NCBI RefSeq assembly: GCF_000313135.1
Contig: NW_004457532.1
Span: 734,539 to 798,538 of the forward strand
Direction of reading: 5' to 3'
From: Acanthamoeba castellanii str. Neff
Taxonomy: Eukaryota; Discosea; Longamoebia; Acanthamoebidae
DNA: 64,000 bases
Shown: positions 47,620-55,000 of the stretch, in pieces
Layout: each line of letters begins with the position of its first letter
Numbering within the stretch: the first letter of the stretch is position 1
The notes under the pieces: generated by a model
The model's input: the letters and a program-made list of their open reading frames with translations, nothing else
Databases searched by the model: none
What the model was told of the DNA's origin: nothing
Made by a program: the position numbers and the translations under genes

Positions 47620-48233
47620 CTTGTCTCGTGTGTCGTGTGTCGTGTGTCGTGTGCATGCGTGTCAACCGCACATGCACACGACCGCACACACGCGCGAGAG
47701 GAGTGATGTGGTCACTTCACATACCGGTCCAGCAGGGAGTGCCACAGCGGGTCATGGTGGCGTTGTCCTCCTTGATGCGCGCGAACCCAAAGTCGGCCAC
47801 CTTCACGTTCCACTCGTCGTCCACCAGCAGGTTGGACGGCTTCACGTCCCGGTGCACGATGCCCGCCGGCTGGCGCGTGTGCAGATAGGCCAGCCCGACG
47901 GCGGCCGAGCGCAGAAGCCCGAGGCGGCGGTGTCAGGGGAGGCGGATGGAGGAGTCGGCGATGATCTCCTTGAGCGCGCCGCGCTTGACGAACAGCGAGT
48001 GCAGGTAATTGATGCCCAGCGCCGCGCTGTGCAGCAGCTTGAGCTTCTGCGCCCAGGCCAGCTTGACGCTGTTGTTGGCCAGGATGTCGCGCAGGCTGCC
48101 GTTCTTGACGAACTCGGTCACGATGCACAGGTTGAGTCGCTTCACGCACGCCCCTGTGTGCGGGTCGTGTCGTGTCGTGTGTGCGTGCGTTTATGTCAGC
48201 GCGTGTGTGAGTCGTGGAACGTGTCGCGTGTCA
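47620..48233 (-). pseudogene. Inverted broken copy of a receptor kinase C-lobe
   Basis: The minus strand reads as a near-copy of the + strand at about 58625-59120, including the flanking introns. It keeps [25 protein letters not shown] and [19 protein letters not shown]. It also carries a second paralogue's segment spliced in at VTEFVK (NGSLRDILANNSVKLAWAQ and a following helix) before the [11 protein letters not shown] segment. A TGG of the intact copy is TGA here (47933-47935), so the frame is broken. The ACACGAC repeat intron is shortened to a few units at 47622-47660. The result is a chimeric, non-functional fragment. Confidence 0.85.
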
Positions 48234-48361
48234 CGAGCGGCGCCTGCTCGAGTTCCGCGCCGAGATGGCCTTCCTCTCCGAGCTCCACCACCCCAACATC
48301 GCCCTCTTCATCGTTACCCCCAGGCTGCACCTCAACACCCAATCATCACGCCCCTCCATTT
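48234..48361 (+). pseudogene. Broken copy of a receptor kinase N-lobe segment, head-to-head with the C-lobe copy
   Basis: This matches the + strand at about 58488-58620: [20 protein letters not shown], then the start of the following intron. The intact splice donor GGTACC reads GTTACC here, so the donor is lost. It abuts the inverted C-lobe copy, so the two halves point away from each other. Confidence 0.85.
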
Positions 48362-48720
48362 CGCATTTACGTCCTGGCACCATCGCAGAACCAGCCCTCC
48401 CACTTATCCTTCTCTATGACGAAGCACACCGTCTCCATGTAGTCGACGTCGCCGAACTCGGAGAGGGCTGCCTGCCTGGCCCAGCCTCGGCAACAATCCC
48501 CGCCCGCGAGGACGATGTGCTCGAGCAGATCGGGATGTTGCCCTCGCAGCGCTTTGGCTGCTCTCGCCTGCCCTCTCGGCGTGGGTTGCGTCAGACTTTT
48601 TGAAGAAATGCCTTCCTGATGCCCAGCGAGTGTGCAGTGACCAGCTAAAGGCGATCAGCTGGATCTGCTGGCTTCGCCCTGAGGTCCAAACCCTGGTGAA
48701 CCTCATAAAATAGGGCAGGG
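48362..48720 (-). pseudogene. Coding-like remnant, unrecognised
   Basis: On the minus strand, about 48580-48400, a frame without a start reads ALRGQHPDLLEHIVLAGGD, then CRGWARQAALSEFGDVDYM and ETVCFVIEKD. It has the composition of real protein, including short A/L-rich helices a little like ankyrin-type repeats. It is bounded by the kinase fragment on one side and the CpG-poor segment on the other, so it is probably a gene fragment. Confidence 0.35.
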
Positions 48721-50480
48721 GTTGTTGATGTGATAGTCCTCTGCAGGCAACAACTCGGGGAGGTGCTCAAGTTGAAGCACTGGCGTTGTGTGACCACCCT
48801 GCACATGTCCTACTTCAAAGGTCCACAATGAAGAGAACGCAGCTGGTGCTCAACGTGGAGCAATGCCAGCGCAGCAGCACTGCAGCCCCTACATCCACAC
48901 CAGCTGACTCTTGCTCCTATTGGACAAGGTCTTGCTCTCTGGTGGGCAACAGCGCAGCACCTCTCTGGCCATGACCACTTGGGGTGCAACTGTTCTCTTG
49001 CACAGCCTATTGGCAGAAATATATCTACAAAAAGAGTGTGCACAGCTCTTGCGCCCAAAACCCATACCAGAATACACATGGGTGCATGCAAAAGGTGTGT
49101 GCACAATGTAGTTGATGGGGCCAAATGCACACAAGGTGCATGCAGAAAGAGTGTGCAGGCTGCAACCCACCATCTTGGGTCCATTGGTTGGTGGTAGGAG
49201 TTGTTGAAGGGATGGGTCACTGTTGGCCTTGTAGTAGATGTTGAGTTGGCCATTGTCCATTGTGGCCCATAGAGTCAGTTTGCTTGATCAGTTCTGTGCT
49301 CAGCCTCTGTTGGTCATCCTGGCCATCTGGCCAACTGGCTGAAGCTTGCTACATCTTGGGACCAAGAGTTGCACAGTGTCACTCTCCACCAGGAGTGTGG
49401 CAGTGCACCCCTTGAAGGCTGCCTTGGTGGCCTCACAGCCCTCATCTGTGAGTTGCACTTTGGCCAGCTGGGCTTGGTTGGAAGGATGGGTGATGAAGGT
49501 GTGATCCTTGAGTCTTGATGACTTTAACATAGACATGGCCATCCACAGCTTAGGAAACCTGCCTTACCATGGTGAGGCCATGCACCAGATGCTTGAGCTT
49601 GATGACCCAATCAAGACAAAGTCATCAAGATGCAGTTGGAGAAGGATAATAGTGATGTATGGTGCAGTGTGTACTCTGGGCTCTTGTCCTCTAGTTGTCT
49701 GGTCTGGCCCTTATGGCACCCCAGCATCAGCCATCTTTGCCTGCATTGTGTCAAAGATGTCCTGCTTGTGTTCCCACCATTTATTACCAGGTTATTTCCT
49801 GGTCCTAAGCAGACAGGTGGGATTGATTCCTGTCCCATCCAGCCTTTGTGAAAAGCCTCACAATTCTTTAAACAATTTGCTGTTGTTGGGTGGGCATGAA
49901 CAATCACCAGATGTCAATAGATGACCTTTCTGGCAGTCCCCCAGGTACATAGCCCACCAACTTTGGCACAGCACTGAGGCTCTTTTTAATCCAGCTTGAT
50001 TTTCAATTTCACAATCAGATGTCCTCATGCCCTGCAGTGTACAACACAAGGGTGCATGGGGACCCACAATCTTGCACAGTTGGACAAGATGGGCCTCAAC
50101 ACCAACCTGTCCTTCAATTGCAACACTCTACTTGATGAGGACAAATGGTTCTGCAATGATTGCTCAATGTTAGTCTTGTGAAAGGGCAAAGCAGAGCATA
50201 AGCAAACATGCAAGCACAGCAACTGCATTGAACAACTTATCATGTGCCAGACATTGCCACATCTGGCCCATCTGCACAAGTCAGCGCACCACGGGGAGCC
50301 AGGCAACACATGGAGCAGTAATCACAGGTCAAGTTGCCCACCTTCACCAAGCTACCTTCTTCACCTTTTCTATTGGGGCTACCATCACTGATCATCTTTG
50401 TGCAGCCACAGGATCATTAATGAGCCTGGCGACAATGAAGGGGATGCACCTGTGGATGGTGATGACGGCAATACAGTAGC
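48721..50480. mobile_element. CpG-depleted anomalous segment, probably a decayed insertion
   Basis: The composition changes sharply from the GC- and CpG-rich surroundings. From 49054 to 50284 there is not one CG dinucleotide in about 1.23 kb, while TG and CA are very frequent. Neighbouring sequence has a CG roughly every 8-10 bases. Frames on both strands are short and interrupted; minus-strand pieces such as KVQLTDEGCEATKAAFKGC and LGPGNNLVINGGNTSRTSL look like worn coding sequence but match nothing I know. No terminal repeat or target-site duplication was found by eye. This looks like an old insertion (transposon or virus-derived) that was cytosine-methylated and then decayed by deamination. 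The mobile-element label is inference. Confidence 0.5.
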
Positions 50481-50565
50481 ACTACTGATGATGTGGAGGA
50501 GCTGGAAATGGCCGAGGAGCTGGGCGGATTCGGCACGGTGCACAAGGCGCCACCATCGGAATGCT
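50481..50565 (+). pseudogene. Short fragment of the receptor's first kinase domain
   Basis: It reads [18 protein letters not shown], matching the intact [20 protein letters not shown] at about 55559-55615 but lacking two residues of the glycine loop. It marks the right edge of the anomalous segment. Confidence 0.75.
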
Positions 50566-50569
50566 AAAC

Positions 50570-51665
50570 TCGTCTGAGCTTGGGGTTTGGGCGCCAAGAC
50601 TGGCTCGCCCATGATTCCGAAGTTGATGATCTGCAAAAAGGGTTTAACGCTAGTGAGCTGATCAGGAGTGGTGAGGAGAAGGAGTACCCACTTTTCATTA
50701 AGTCCGACTGCCAAGTCCTGGTCTCCGCCTGAGTAGTAGGTCATCTGAAAGTTGAGGTCGAACGGGTAGGCCTGTACCCAGATCTGCCCGATGTTGAAGA
50801 CCTCCCCTCGGCCAATGATCACCTTCTTGCTGAAGGTTTGCTGCCCGTTGCAGAACGAAATCCCGAAAACAACCATCACCAACCTATGGCGAAGCGGGTC
50901 AACATCAGTCAAGGCGTGCCAACACTGGTTTAGGTTTAGGTTGGAGCTTACCTCTTGAAGTAGAAGGGCAAGGGTACGTAGCCCTCTTGCTCGGTCAGCT
51001 CGAGGGCGTTCTCGTTGAGCAGGCCCCAGGCCAGCATCTGCTGGGCGTTGGTGAGCCAGTTGCAGTCGGACCCGTTGTGCACAAACCGCGTGGTGACGGC
51101 ATGGGCCACGGTGTCGACTGGTTGCCTTTGTGCAGCTTGACCACCAGGAAACGAGGCGTCAGCTGATCGTCACCTCCGCCACTGCCGACTGCACTGATGT
51201 GGTGTTGGCCTCGACCACATTGCCTGCATTCCGCCACCACTACGAGTTTCAGCCACACGACTGCACATGCACGACCGCACACACACACTCACAGCACCTG
51301 CCTTGTTCTTCATGCGAGCGTAGGGCACCGACCAGTTTGGAGAAGACCGAGTTGGCGTAGGTCATGCTGAAAGGGCTTGCCTGCATGGATGTACTTGTTG
51401 GAAAGCAGTGGAGGTACAGCCGTGGCTCCGATTTGCGTGGGACCGGAGGTGACGACCGTGGAGCGGGCGGGGATGGAGCCGAATTGGAACCACTTGCTGG
51501 CAAAAGAGTCGTTGGTCATCTTGAAGGCCGGATTGAAGTCGGCCATCGCGTCGGCGAACACGTCGGAGATGGTGGCGGTCGTCGCCGTAGACCAGGAAGA
51601 TGGGCAGGAAGGGATTGAGGGCGGCGCTGGCCGAGCGTTCCTGCTATTGTACCCCACAGATTTCG
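50570..51665 (-). pseudogene. Inverted, frameshifted copy of a PstS-like receptor domain
   Basis: On the minus strand the exons in order give: SAALNPFLPIFLVYGDDR, then DVFADAMADFNPAFKMTN and DSFASKWFQFGSIPARS; a piece matching FSMTYANSVFSKLVGALR; GSDCNWLTNAQQMLAWGLL; YVPLPFYFKR; and CNGQQTFSKKVIIGRG. Each aligns with an exon of the intact receptor at about 53000-54000. Between GDDR and the following ATISD the frame shifts by one base (near 51575-51580), and no upstream signal peptide or downstream EGF, membrane or kinase exons follow. It is a truncated pseudogene copy of the PBP part. Confidence 0.8.
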
Positions 51666-52060: not shown

Positions 52061-55000
52061 ATGGCACGCATCGTGCCCGCACATTTGCTGTGTTTTCTTG
52101 TACTCGCCTTCTGCTCAACACAAGGTTGCTCCTATCTCTCTCAGTCCTTCTCATTTCAGTTCTAGTTCTGGTTCTTTTGTTGTTCTCAATTCTCCATTTC
52201 GCACCTGACGCAGGGCGAGCGCAGACCTTCATCTCAGCCGCCGGTAGCGTCCAGGTGGGCGCTCTCATCTTGTCGGCCATTCAAAACTACCAGGTACCCC
52301 AGTCCCCCACCCTACACCTTCTTCTCGTTCTTGTCTCGCCCTCTGCAGAGTACCGAAAAGCGCCGTTCCGGAAGGAGTTTACGTCCGAACTGCGAAGGCA
52401 CGAAGTCACTGTTGCACTCACACCGTTTGGGGATCACGCGACATGGCCACCAGTTCGTGCAGGAAGACTTCACCCTGCTCTTCAAGCAGGACCAGACCGC
52501 CGAGGCGGCCCTGCAGGGAGTCGTGGCCGGTACTATGGTGCGTGCCCGCGAGGCAAACTTGCTTTGTGATGACTGTCCTAGGAACGAATTAATTAGATGG
52601 CATGGTGCCAGACTCGAAAAAGAAGATAGTCTGGGTTTTTGCGCTTTGCTTGCGACCAACACTCTCTCCCTCGTGATGACAGGACTTCGCGGCGATGGAC
52701 GCGCCCTATCCGCCGGAGTGGCTCATGGAGCGAAACGCCATCCACCTGCCGGTTGTCGGCCAGCCGATAGTGCCCGCCTACAACCTCGGCCCCGACACTC
52801 CACCCAATAATCAAACCCTGGTTCGTAGCTGTTACTTTGAAATTTTTGTAATTTTTTTATTATAACAATTCAATGACATTTTTAACATTTTGTGGTTTAC
52901 CGGTTAGGTGCTGAGCGTGCCCGTGCTGGCGGACATATGGTCGGGCAACGTCGTATTCTGGAATGACTCGGCCATCGCGGACCTCAACCCGGGCGTCGCT
53001 CTGCCCTTCCAGCCCATCGTGCTCGTGTTCGCCAACGACAGGCGCGGCAGCATCTCCGACTCGTTCGCCAGCGCCTTGGCCTACTGGAATCCCGCGTTCG
53101 CCATGTCGATCTACTCCACCAACGACTCGCTGGCCAGCCGGTGGTCCCAGTTTGGCTCTATCGCTCCACGCTCCTACGTCGTCGAACCCGGTGAACAGCA
53201 ACTGGGCGCCGTTTTGGTACGTGGGTTGCAATTTCTTTTATGTCCGACTAGAGGGAGGCTAACTTGCTGGGAATCACTTCAGGCGATTCCCTACAGCCTC
53301 ACCTACACCACGGCCGTGTTTGCTGGCCTTGCGAGCCTGCCCTACGCCCAGATGCGAAACAAAGCTGGTACCCCCATTCATTGCACCGACAAAATGAAGA
53401 TATCTCAATCAGTAATACTCAATTCGTGTCTGACCGCAGGAGCCACGGTGAGTCCGAGCAAAGCGGCCGTACAGTCGGCGCTGGTGGAGGTGCTGGATCG
53501 AGTGACCTCGTTGGCGCTCGTGGTGGACGTGCACAACGGCAACCTGTCCACGTCGTGGCCCGTGGTCATGTTCAGCTTCGTCACCACGCAGAAGCACGTC
53601 AACTCTTCGGACTGCAACTGGATCACCTACGGCCAGCAGTTGCTCGCCTGGACCCAGCTCAACGAAAAGGCCATCAGCACCACAGAGGCGCTGGGCTTCG
53701 TGCCGCTGCCCTTGGCCTACAAACGGTACCATCACCATCAACTCGTCACTATCTCTTCTAATTTATCTGTTTCTGATTGTACCCGCACAGGTTGATCATG
53801 GACACCTATGGCCTGCTCTCGTGCAACGGCAAACAGACCTTTACCAGCAAGGTGGTGATCGGCAAGGGTGACAACTTCAAGATCGGACCCATCTGGACTC
53901 GGGCCTACCCCTTCGACAGCAATTTCCAGATGACCTTCTACACCGAGACCAACGCTACCAACGCCCTGGCCGAACTCACCGCAAGTACGCGAGAGCAATG
54001 GGGCCCATCATCACAGATCTGATTGTGCGCCAGAGTTGCTGACTCTGCTCTCTTTCTACAGACAACGTCGACTTTAGCGTGATCGACTACGACGTTGCCG
54101 AGGGCCGATCGGCCCAAGCGAGAAGAGAAGAGAGGGTTTCCTCGCCTGATGAGCTGAGCCTCCCGCTGGTCGCATACGCCATCGGAGCTGGCTACAACGT
54201 ACGTTACACCCACCGGCTTTTCTTCTTCTTCTTCTTGCAAGCTTGGAAGTGTTGGTTCGACTCAACTCAATTGAGCAGTTACGAACTGCTGACGGCCCCC
54301 CAATCGCTGGTGCTGAACCTTACCACGCTGGCGGACATATACCTGGGCACGGTGGACAGGTGGGACCACGCGGCCATCCGCGAGCTCAACCCGACCCTGG
54401 CCCACCTCCTCCCCGCCCAGAACATCACCGTGGTCCTGAGCACCTACGACGCTCCCGCTATCACGCGCATCATGACCGAGACCCTGCGCAACGTGAGCCA
54501 AACTTTCAGAGAGCTGGTGGTACTCTGACACACACAACACCGCATACGACGCACACGACACACGACGCGCACACGACACACGCAGGCTAACGCGCCATCA
54601 CAATCAATTGCAGGTGGGCACTGGTGCATCGGTACATTTCCCGGTGGAGGACACAGGAAGGGTGGTGCGGGTGGATGACGTGGCATCTGCGCTGGACCAA
54701 AGCGCGTACCGACTGGCCGTATGGCCGCAGGAGCCCATCCGTACGCGGCGCTACTTGGGCTTCGCCGATCTGATCAACGTGCGCGGCGTCCGCGTGTCGG
54801 CGTCGGCGGCGACCATCGCCTCCAGCCTGAGCGACTACCGCGCGCTGCCCCTCACTTCCTCTCTCACCAACGGTTCGTGTTCACACGCCCGCGGCACATT
54901 TTTTCGACCAGTGGCGGAGTTGAAAACTCACTTGCATTTTTCCTTTGCTGGACACTCAATGCGATCATCGCAGGTGGCGGGCGTGACAGCTGGCCGATGG

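Follow-up and report, generated by a model that had tools for sequence, protein, structure and literature searches.

A CpG-free stretch in Acanthamoeba castellanii, with 5-methylcytosine-linked decay as its probable origin

Methylation-linked mutation in described systems

RIP acts on duplicated DNA during sexual reproduction, at meiosis or ahead of it, and needs a methyltransferase of the RID/Masc1 type. Within a copy it is strand-coordinated. Passages on fungal RIP in ascomycetes and Pucciniomycotina describe C-to-T change concentrated on a single type of site in copies of retroelements (PMC9246332, PMC5381629). Retroelement copies here show such a concentration too, and one copy pair appears strand-coordinated. 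The targets differ. The Neurospora type targets CpA, and the RIP-like process of Pucciniomycotina, described as TpCpG hypermutation in Microbotryum, targets TpCpG (passages of PMC5381629); in our stretch CpA was in excess, CpG was lost, and CpG was empty in every context. The stretch is also single-copy and the host is not a fungus. According to a passage of a 2022 review, no process other than RIP is so far known to exploit the mutagenicity of cytosine methylation, and RIP may well have evolved outside fungi (PMC9246332). DNMT4/RID is apparently confined to fungi, as stated in one passage of PMC12344493.

CpG methylation in Acanthamoeba is already published. In A. castellanii Neff, according to parts of PMC12344493, DNMT1 and DNMT3 are present and CpG methylation falls on LINE and LTR elements, on silent genes and on genes of viral origin; the amoeba can be grown axenically, and cytidine analogues deplete its 5mC in part, as is also reported there. 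The maps of hypermethylated regions call existing CpGs, on which EM-seq, bisulfite and Nanopore agree (PMC12344493, same passages). Viral insertions are described as hypermethylated and are proposed to deteriorate by point mutation, among other ways (passage of PMC12210455). Our findings share with this silencing of transposons and viral DNA the CpG context, the retroelement targets and the methyltransferase genes; the two papers, in the parts concerned, map present methylation, whereas erased sites are seen here. Those passages contain no CpG-free stretches, and that of PMC12210455 on point mutation does not name CpG. A search of open-licence literature turned up nothing about CpG deserts in Acanthamoeba, nor about RIP-like mutation there. 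Surprising here are the completeness of decay and a strand-biased pair of copies differing almost only at CpG.

Known CpG depletion by 5mC has the same CpG-only loss, gain of TpG and CpA, normal GpC, occurrence in silenced or repetitive DNA, and a DNMT1-like gene. The present case differs in that 0 of 73.6 expected CpGs remain, the loss forms patches in a CpG-full genome (observed/expected ratio, o/e, 1.04), and the ratio of CpG to other change that would be required is ~40 or more.

The CpG-free stretch and its neighbourhood

CpG was counted over the window (the whole stretch of DNA analysed, 64000 bases), which has 5860 CpGs, CpG o/e 1.04 and GC 0.592. CG starts at 49052 and at 50285, and nowhere in between. 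The desert so defined (G000:C94:783592-784822) lies inside a contig of 1,174,982 bases and has a shoulder on each side:

48601..49052, no strand: left shoulder with partial CpG loss (4-5 CpGs per 200-base step in 48601-49000; ~15 expected)
49053..50285, no strand: CpG-free core with excess of TpG and CpA (from dinucleotide counts, CpG-decay comparison and genome copy search)
50286..50470, no strand: right shoulder with partial CpG loss (2 CpGs per 200 bases within 50201-50500; ~12 expected)

Positions 49054-50284 comprise 1231 bases with GC 0.489 and no CpG; 73.6 were expected from base composition. The recount thus bore out the first-pass annotation, which had claimed zero CpG in this interval. 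Stretches of the same length in the window have 116 ± 24 CpGs, the runner-up among its CpG spacings measures 168, and ln P for a CpG-free run this long is about -118 given the window CpG density. The CpG-free observation is therefore confirmed and strong. TpG and CpA, correctly described in the annotation as common, had o/e of 1.77 and 1.87 in the core vs. 1.17 and 1.21 in the window. GpC o/e was normal (1.09), indicating that the loss was CpG-specific, and all CpG contexts were empty, not TpCpG alone. Outside 49001-51000, CpG o/e in 1-kb steps was 0.74-1.34. The claim of CpG-rich flanks needs correction: the nearest flanks are depleted, as the shoulder counts above show, and on the right the density climbs from the 50401-50600 step onward.

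For comparison with the core, each CpG in window stretches of equal length was replaced randomly by TpG or CpA. For none of the 16 dinucleotides did the count in the core differ by more than 1 SD from that of the decayed window DNA (TG, 144 vs. 144; CA, 135 vs. 146), and GC was 0.489 vs. 0.501 ± 0.022. The core thus resembles local DNA after full decay of CpG alone. The 144 TG and 135 CA are intermixed along the desert without runs. This mixing fits independent events or many rounds, not one strand-coordinated round. No significant strand tract was detected by two measures in eight desert or fragment stretches, two of which overlap (lowest P 0.077).

Decay of 1231 bases was simulated under two mutation-bias settings, and P was taken as the highest probability, over the simulated times, that no CpG was left. 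For CpG-to-other transition ratios of 10, 20, 40, 80 and 160, P was 0.000-0.002, 0.004-0.010, 0.043-0.060, 0.18-0.22 and 0.42-0.46, respectively. In this model, complete loss would need CpG to mutate ~40 times or more faster than other sites. The vertebrate ratio is 10-15. The required ratio exceeds a vertebrate-like one, and the completeness of decay is surprising. Slow spontaneous deamination combined with little T:G repair and a low background rate could yield a high ratio, as could an active process.

The genome search revealed no second copy of the desert. In CpG-tolerant alignment with CpG-bearing DNA (the masked window and 35 of 38 loci, the three desert-overlapping loci being excluded), its best score was 35.5, no better than those of reversed-window controls (36.0 and 35.0), and kinship with such DNA was therefore rejected. 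Stop codons occur in all six frames. Pfam analysis of the six frames gave no match above threshold and one below it (E 0.19), one open frame of the desert had no relative in the protein database, and no tRNA gene was found within the window. When 3308 open frames were run against four deserts by tblastn at E 0.01, no match to the focal stretch was among the 15 of 55 matches listed. At E 10, its best match had E 0.001 (27% over 41 residues), which amounts to chance with 3308 queries.

Three features adjoin the desert:

47720..47932, minus strand: protein-kinase fragment left of the desert (PF00069, E 9.3e-16)
48233..48365, plus strand: kinase-family piece with DNA similarity to at least 39 other places in the genome
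50385..51155, minus strand: open frame right of the desert, without Pfam match, with an inverted paralogue at 52908-53941 (plus strand) ~3 kb away

The translation of 48233-48365 is one that we take to be kinase. Its matches in at least 39 other places reach 85-96% over ~80-130 bases (40 of 60 candidates scored), most being ~80-90 bases long at 90-96%; the piece belongs to a large gene family, recently spread or converted. The opposite directions of the kinase pieces at 47720 (minus) and 48233 (plus) suggest rearrangement. On the right, paralogous gene pieces at 50733-51577 (minus) and 53045-53941 (plus) lie inverted and head-to-head, with four arms 72-80% alike; the frames tried had no Pfam match. 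In 1-kb steps from 51001 and 53001 these paralogues are near-normal in CpG (o/e 0.88 and 0.95), and a RIP process triggered by them is therefore disfavoured. We infer that the neighbourhood of the desert is rearranged and probably pseudogenic.

CpG depletion elsewhere in the genome

Twenty contig stretches of 10 kb were sampled, of which one was all N and five were partly N. One of the 20 holds another desert (L032), with CpG spacings of 769 and 422; no further spacing above 145 occurred among the readable letters of the sample. A tRNA-Leu gene inside this desert has 7 CpGs vs. 6.3 expected, whereas the 790 bases to its left have 1 vs. 42.9 expected and the 516 bases to its right have 4 vs. 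28.2 expected. The desert is flanked by an inverted tRNA-Val pair; in a 187-column alignment, its two arms are set apart by one CpG difference and by a gap of 4 bases.

Inverted tRNA genes enclose two CpG-poor stretches: L032 1939-3501 (Val...Val) and L041 1513-2833, the same place as L040 (Leu-Val...Val-Leu). The tRNA genes retain CpGs in both. CpG-free steps also adjoin tRNA genes in L044, and the tRNA-Leu loci L042, L045 and L046 are without a long CpG-free run. Among loci fetched for other reasons and hence not random picks, the longest CpG spacing was 381 in L010, 382 in L016, 454 in L040/L041, 401 in L043 and 318 in L044. Neither the L032 desert nor that of L016 recurs in full elsewhere in the genome. 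In seven kinase-family loci used as host control (L006-L012), CpG o/e was 0.97-1.20.

The RVT_1 profile had 31 matches in the genome, and 18 of these reverse-transcriptase sequences were read (L058 together with 400 bases of flank at either end); 7 of the 18 had been picked for in-frame stops, so the sample leans to decayed copies. CpG o/e was at most 0.38 in 12 of the 18 (0-0.04 in five and 0.12-0.38 in seven), 0.47-0.68 in four, 0.74 in one and 1.04 in one. Among the 11 fragments not picked for stops, five had values of at most 0.30. In-frame stops in the RVT_1 and rve matches listed were 32 TGA, 2 TAA and 0 TAG. The kinase control was likewise rich in TGA (at least 33 TGA, at least 8 TAA and at least 2 TAG, some probably in introns), and the TGA excess was therefore given little weight as a sign of CGA-to-TGA decay.

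Two retroelement copies, L057 on contig C104 and L062 on C233, align without gaps over 378 bases with 34 differences. All but one of these substitutions (33/34) fall within 25 dinucleotides that differ as CG, TG or CA; a single CpG is common to both copies. At 8 of the 25 sites one copy has CA and the other TG, as if one ancestral CpG had been lost on opposite strands. CpG losses were 16 CA to 1 TG in L057 and 15 TG to 1 CA in L062, and the subclasses untouched by ascertainment were split 8:1, 7:1 and 8:0 (P 0.039, 0.070 and 0.0078). With independent strand choice and invisible sites allowed, a proportion of 0 to 1.5e-5 of 200,000 simulations reached this bias (six settings). Twelve of the 17 L057 losses alter the amino acid; thus, codon selection does not explain the strand bias. 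The CpG-to-other ratio per base was ~330 when the 326 positions not belonging to the 26 sites served as reference; its lower bound was 39 against all other changes and 59 against other transitions.

Direction of loss in this pair was checked against database relatives at the differing codons. The CpG-state amino acid was held at 5/16 by P0121, 8/16 by P0122, 5/8 by P0123 and 8/11 by P0124. P0121 shares 7/16 with L057 and 2 with L062; it therefore seems to have decayed too and makes a weak outgroup. A single close copy of L057 is present (91% over 462 bases), and L057 and L062 may be two alleles and not independent insertions. In other pairs, the strand split was 8:1 in L058/L061, which has 24 other changes, and 3:4 (in two blocks) in L059/L060, which has 9. 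The distant pair L048/L050 has 26 CG/TG/CA sites among 183 other changes and no pattern.

PF00145 gave six matches on four contigs. As judged by sequence against solved structures, the gene on C155 resembles DNMT1 and that on C248 resembles DNMT2; a DNMT gene, for which the first-pass annotation had suggested a search, is accordingly represented. In comparison with solved structures, HaeIII methylase was closest to the gene on C215 (L013/L014, G000:C215:64255-65683). Pandoravirus massiliensis (48%) and P. kuranda (47%) are near the top of the database matches of this gene, the third-best match being a Pandoravirus enzyme, and it was possibly acquired from a giant virus. A weakly DNMT1-like match lies at C94:880810 (E 0.0005). 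The CpG-poor stretch L016 542-1740 (G000:C94:879851-881049) extends into an open frame weakly resembling DNMT1, as though decay had reached even a methyltransferase gene or pseudogene.

Explanations of the CpG loss

Gradual, 5mC-linked CpG decay of old silenced DNA is the best explanation and probably the correct one. CpG cytosines of old, silent DNA would be methylated and would deaminate, turning CG into TG or, after deamination on the opposite strand, into CA. Loss would continue to zero with other sites little changed, and weak repair of deaminated 5mC would allow CpG to change at least 40 times faster than other sites. The focal stretch itself would once have been methylated, its CpG loss would have been gradual, and it may be what remains of a mobile element or of other silenced DNA.

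The fit of the dinucleotide spectrum, the methyltransferase genes, the depleted retroelements and the published methylation (passages of PMC12344493) make CpG methylation and deamination the best reading, as the first-pass annotation had proposed; the complete loss, however, exceeds what a vertebrate-like ratio gives in simulation. CpG-only loss with gain of TpG and CpA and normal GpC was found, as was a CpG methyltransferase gene predicted from its sequence. The L032 desert, the 12 CpG-poor fragments among 18, the kinase control (0.97-1.20) and the DNMT1-like gene on C155 count in favour, and the absence of strand tracts in the desert is expected of independent events. The stretch is, on the other hand, single-copy without sign of a mobile element, and the required ratio (P 0.04-0.06 at 40; 0.000-0.002 at 10) is above the vertebrate value. 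A passage of PMC12695648 that finds no general link between 5mC level and CpG composition across eukaryotes also counts against 5mC-linked decay. The annotation had further suggested that foreign or repeated DNA was targeted. The stretch, however, has neither a second copy in the genome nor a six-frame Pfam match above threshold, and among the sequences aligned with it no relative scored above the reversed control.

The strand bias of L057/L062 does not fit independent, gradual events. It hints at strand-coordinated hypermutation, a hint that rests mainly on one 378-bp pair. Active deamination could be directed at CpG in retroelements and other silenced DNA, each event affecting a single strand for hundreds of bases, and deserts would then be the end state after several rounds. 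We consider this unlikely. In its favour are the near-confinement of change in the pair to CG/TG/CA sites, losses (16:1 and 15:1) biased beyond independent strand choice and codon selection, the ratio of ~330 with its lower bounds, and the 8:1 split in L058/L061. There is only one clear pair, however; L059/L060 (3:4) and L048/L050 lack the pattern, and neither the focal desert nor the other stretches analysed contain significant strand tracts on two measures. Duplication is seen in L057, with its one close copy, whereas the focal stretch is single-copy and the adjoining inverted paralogues retain near-normal CpG. Direction of transcription or replication could also produce strand bias. A RIP-like genome defence outside fungi, with strand-coordinated CpG bursts on silenced retroelement copies and 49053-50285 as end state, is thus a live and testable but unproven reading, and we hold it to be rather improbable.

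A sequencing artefact, in which a long-read assembly renders methylated CpG wrongly as TG or CA and uneven read strands create bias, would produce CpG-only, strand-biased change in methylated DNA. It is very unlikely: published methylation calls fall on existing CpGs and are concordant across three methods (PMC12344493, in part), the tRNA gene within L032 retains its CpGs, older pairs carry other changes too (9 and 24), and the database relative P0121 differs at such codons (11/16 off the CpG-state residue).

Contamination or transfer from a CpG-poor organism would agree with the GC of the core (0.489), below that of the window (0.592), and with the lack of any relative in the alignment, the six-frame Pfam search and the protein database search with one open frame. 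We give it slightly less credence still, since GC and all dinucleotides except CpG, TpG and CpA match decayed local DNA, CpG declines through the shoulders without sharp ends, and the segment is embedded in a contig of over a megabase. Selection against CpG in a sequence with a function, for example an RNA or a gene that escaped recognition, is the least credible explanation, with no supporting point found and with the stops in six frames, the six-frame Pfam result and the lack of tRNA genes in the window against it.

The CpG deserts, together with the retroelement pair that has diverged almost entirely at CpG, make the question of RIP outside fungi testable in an amoeba. Even if the decay is passive, the deserts would mark formerly silenced DNA whose CpG loss has made it invisible to methylome maps.
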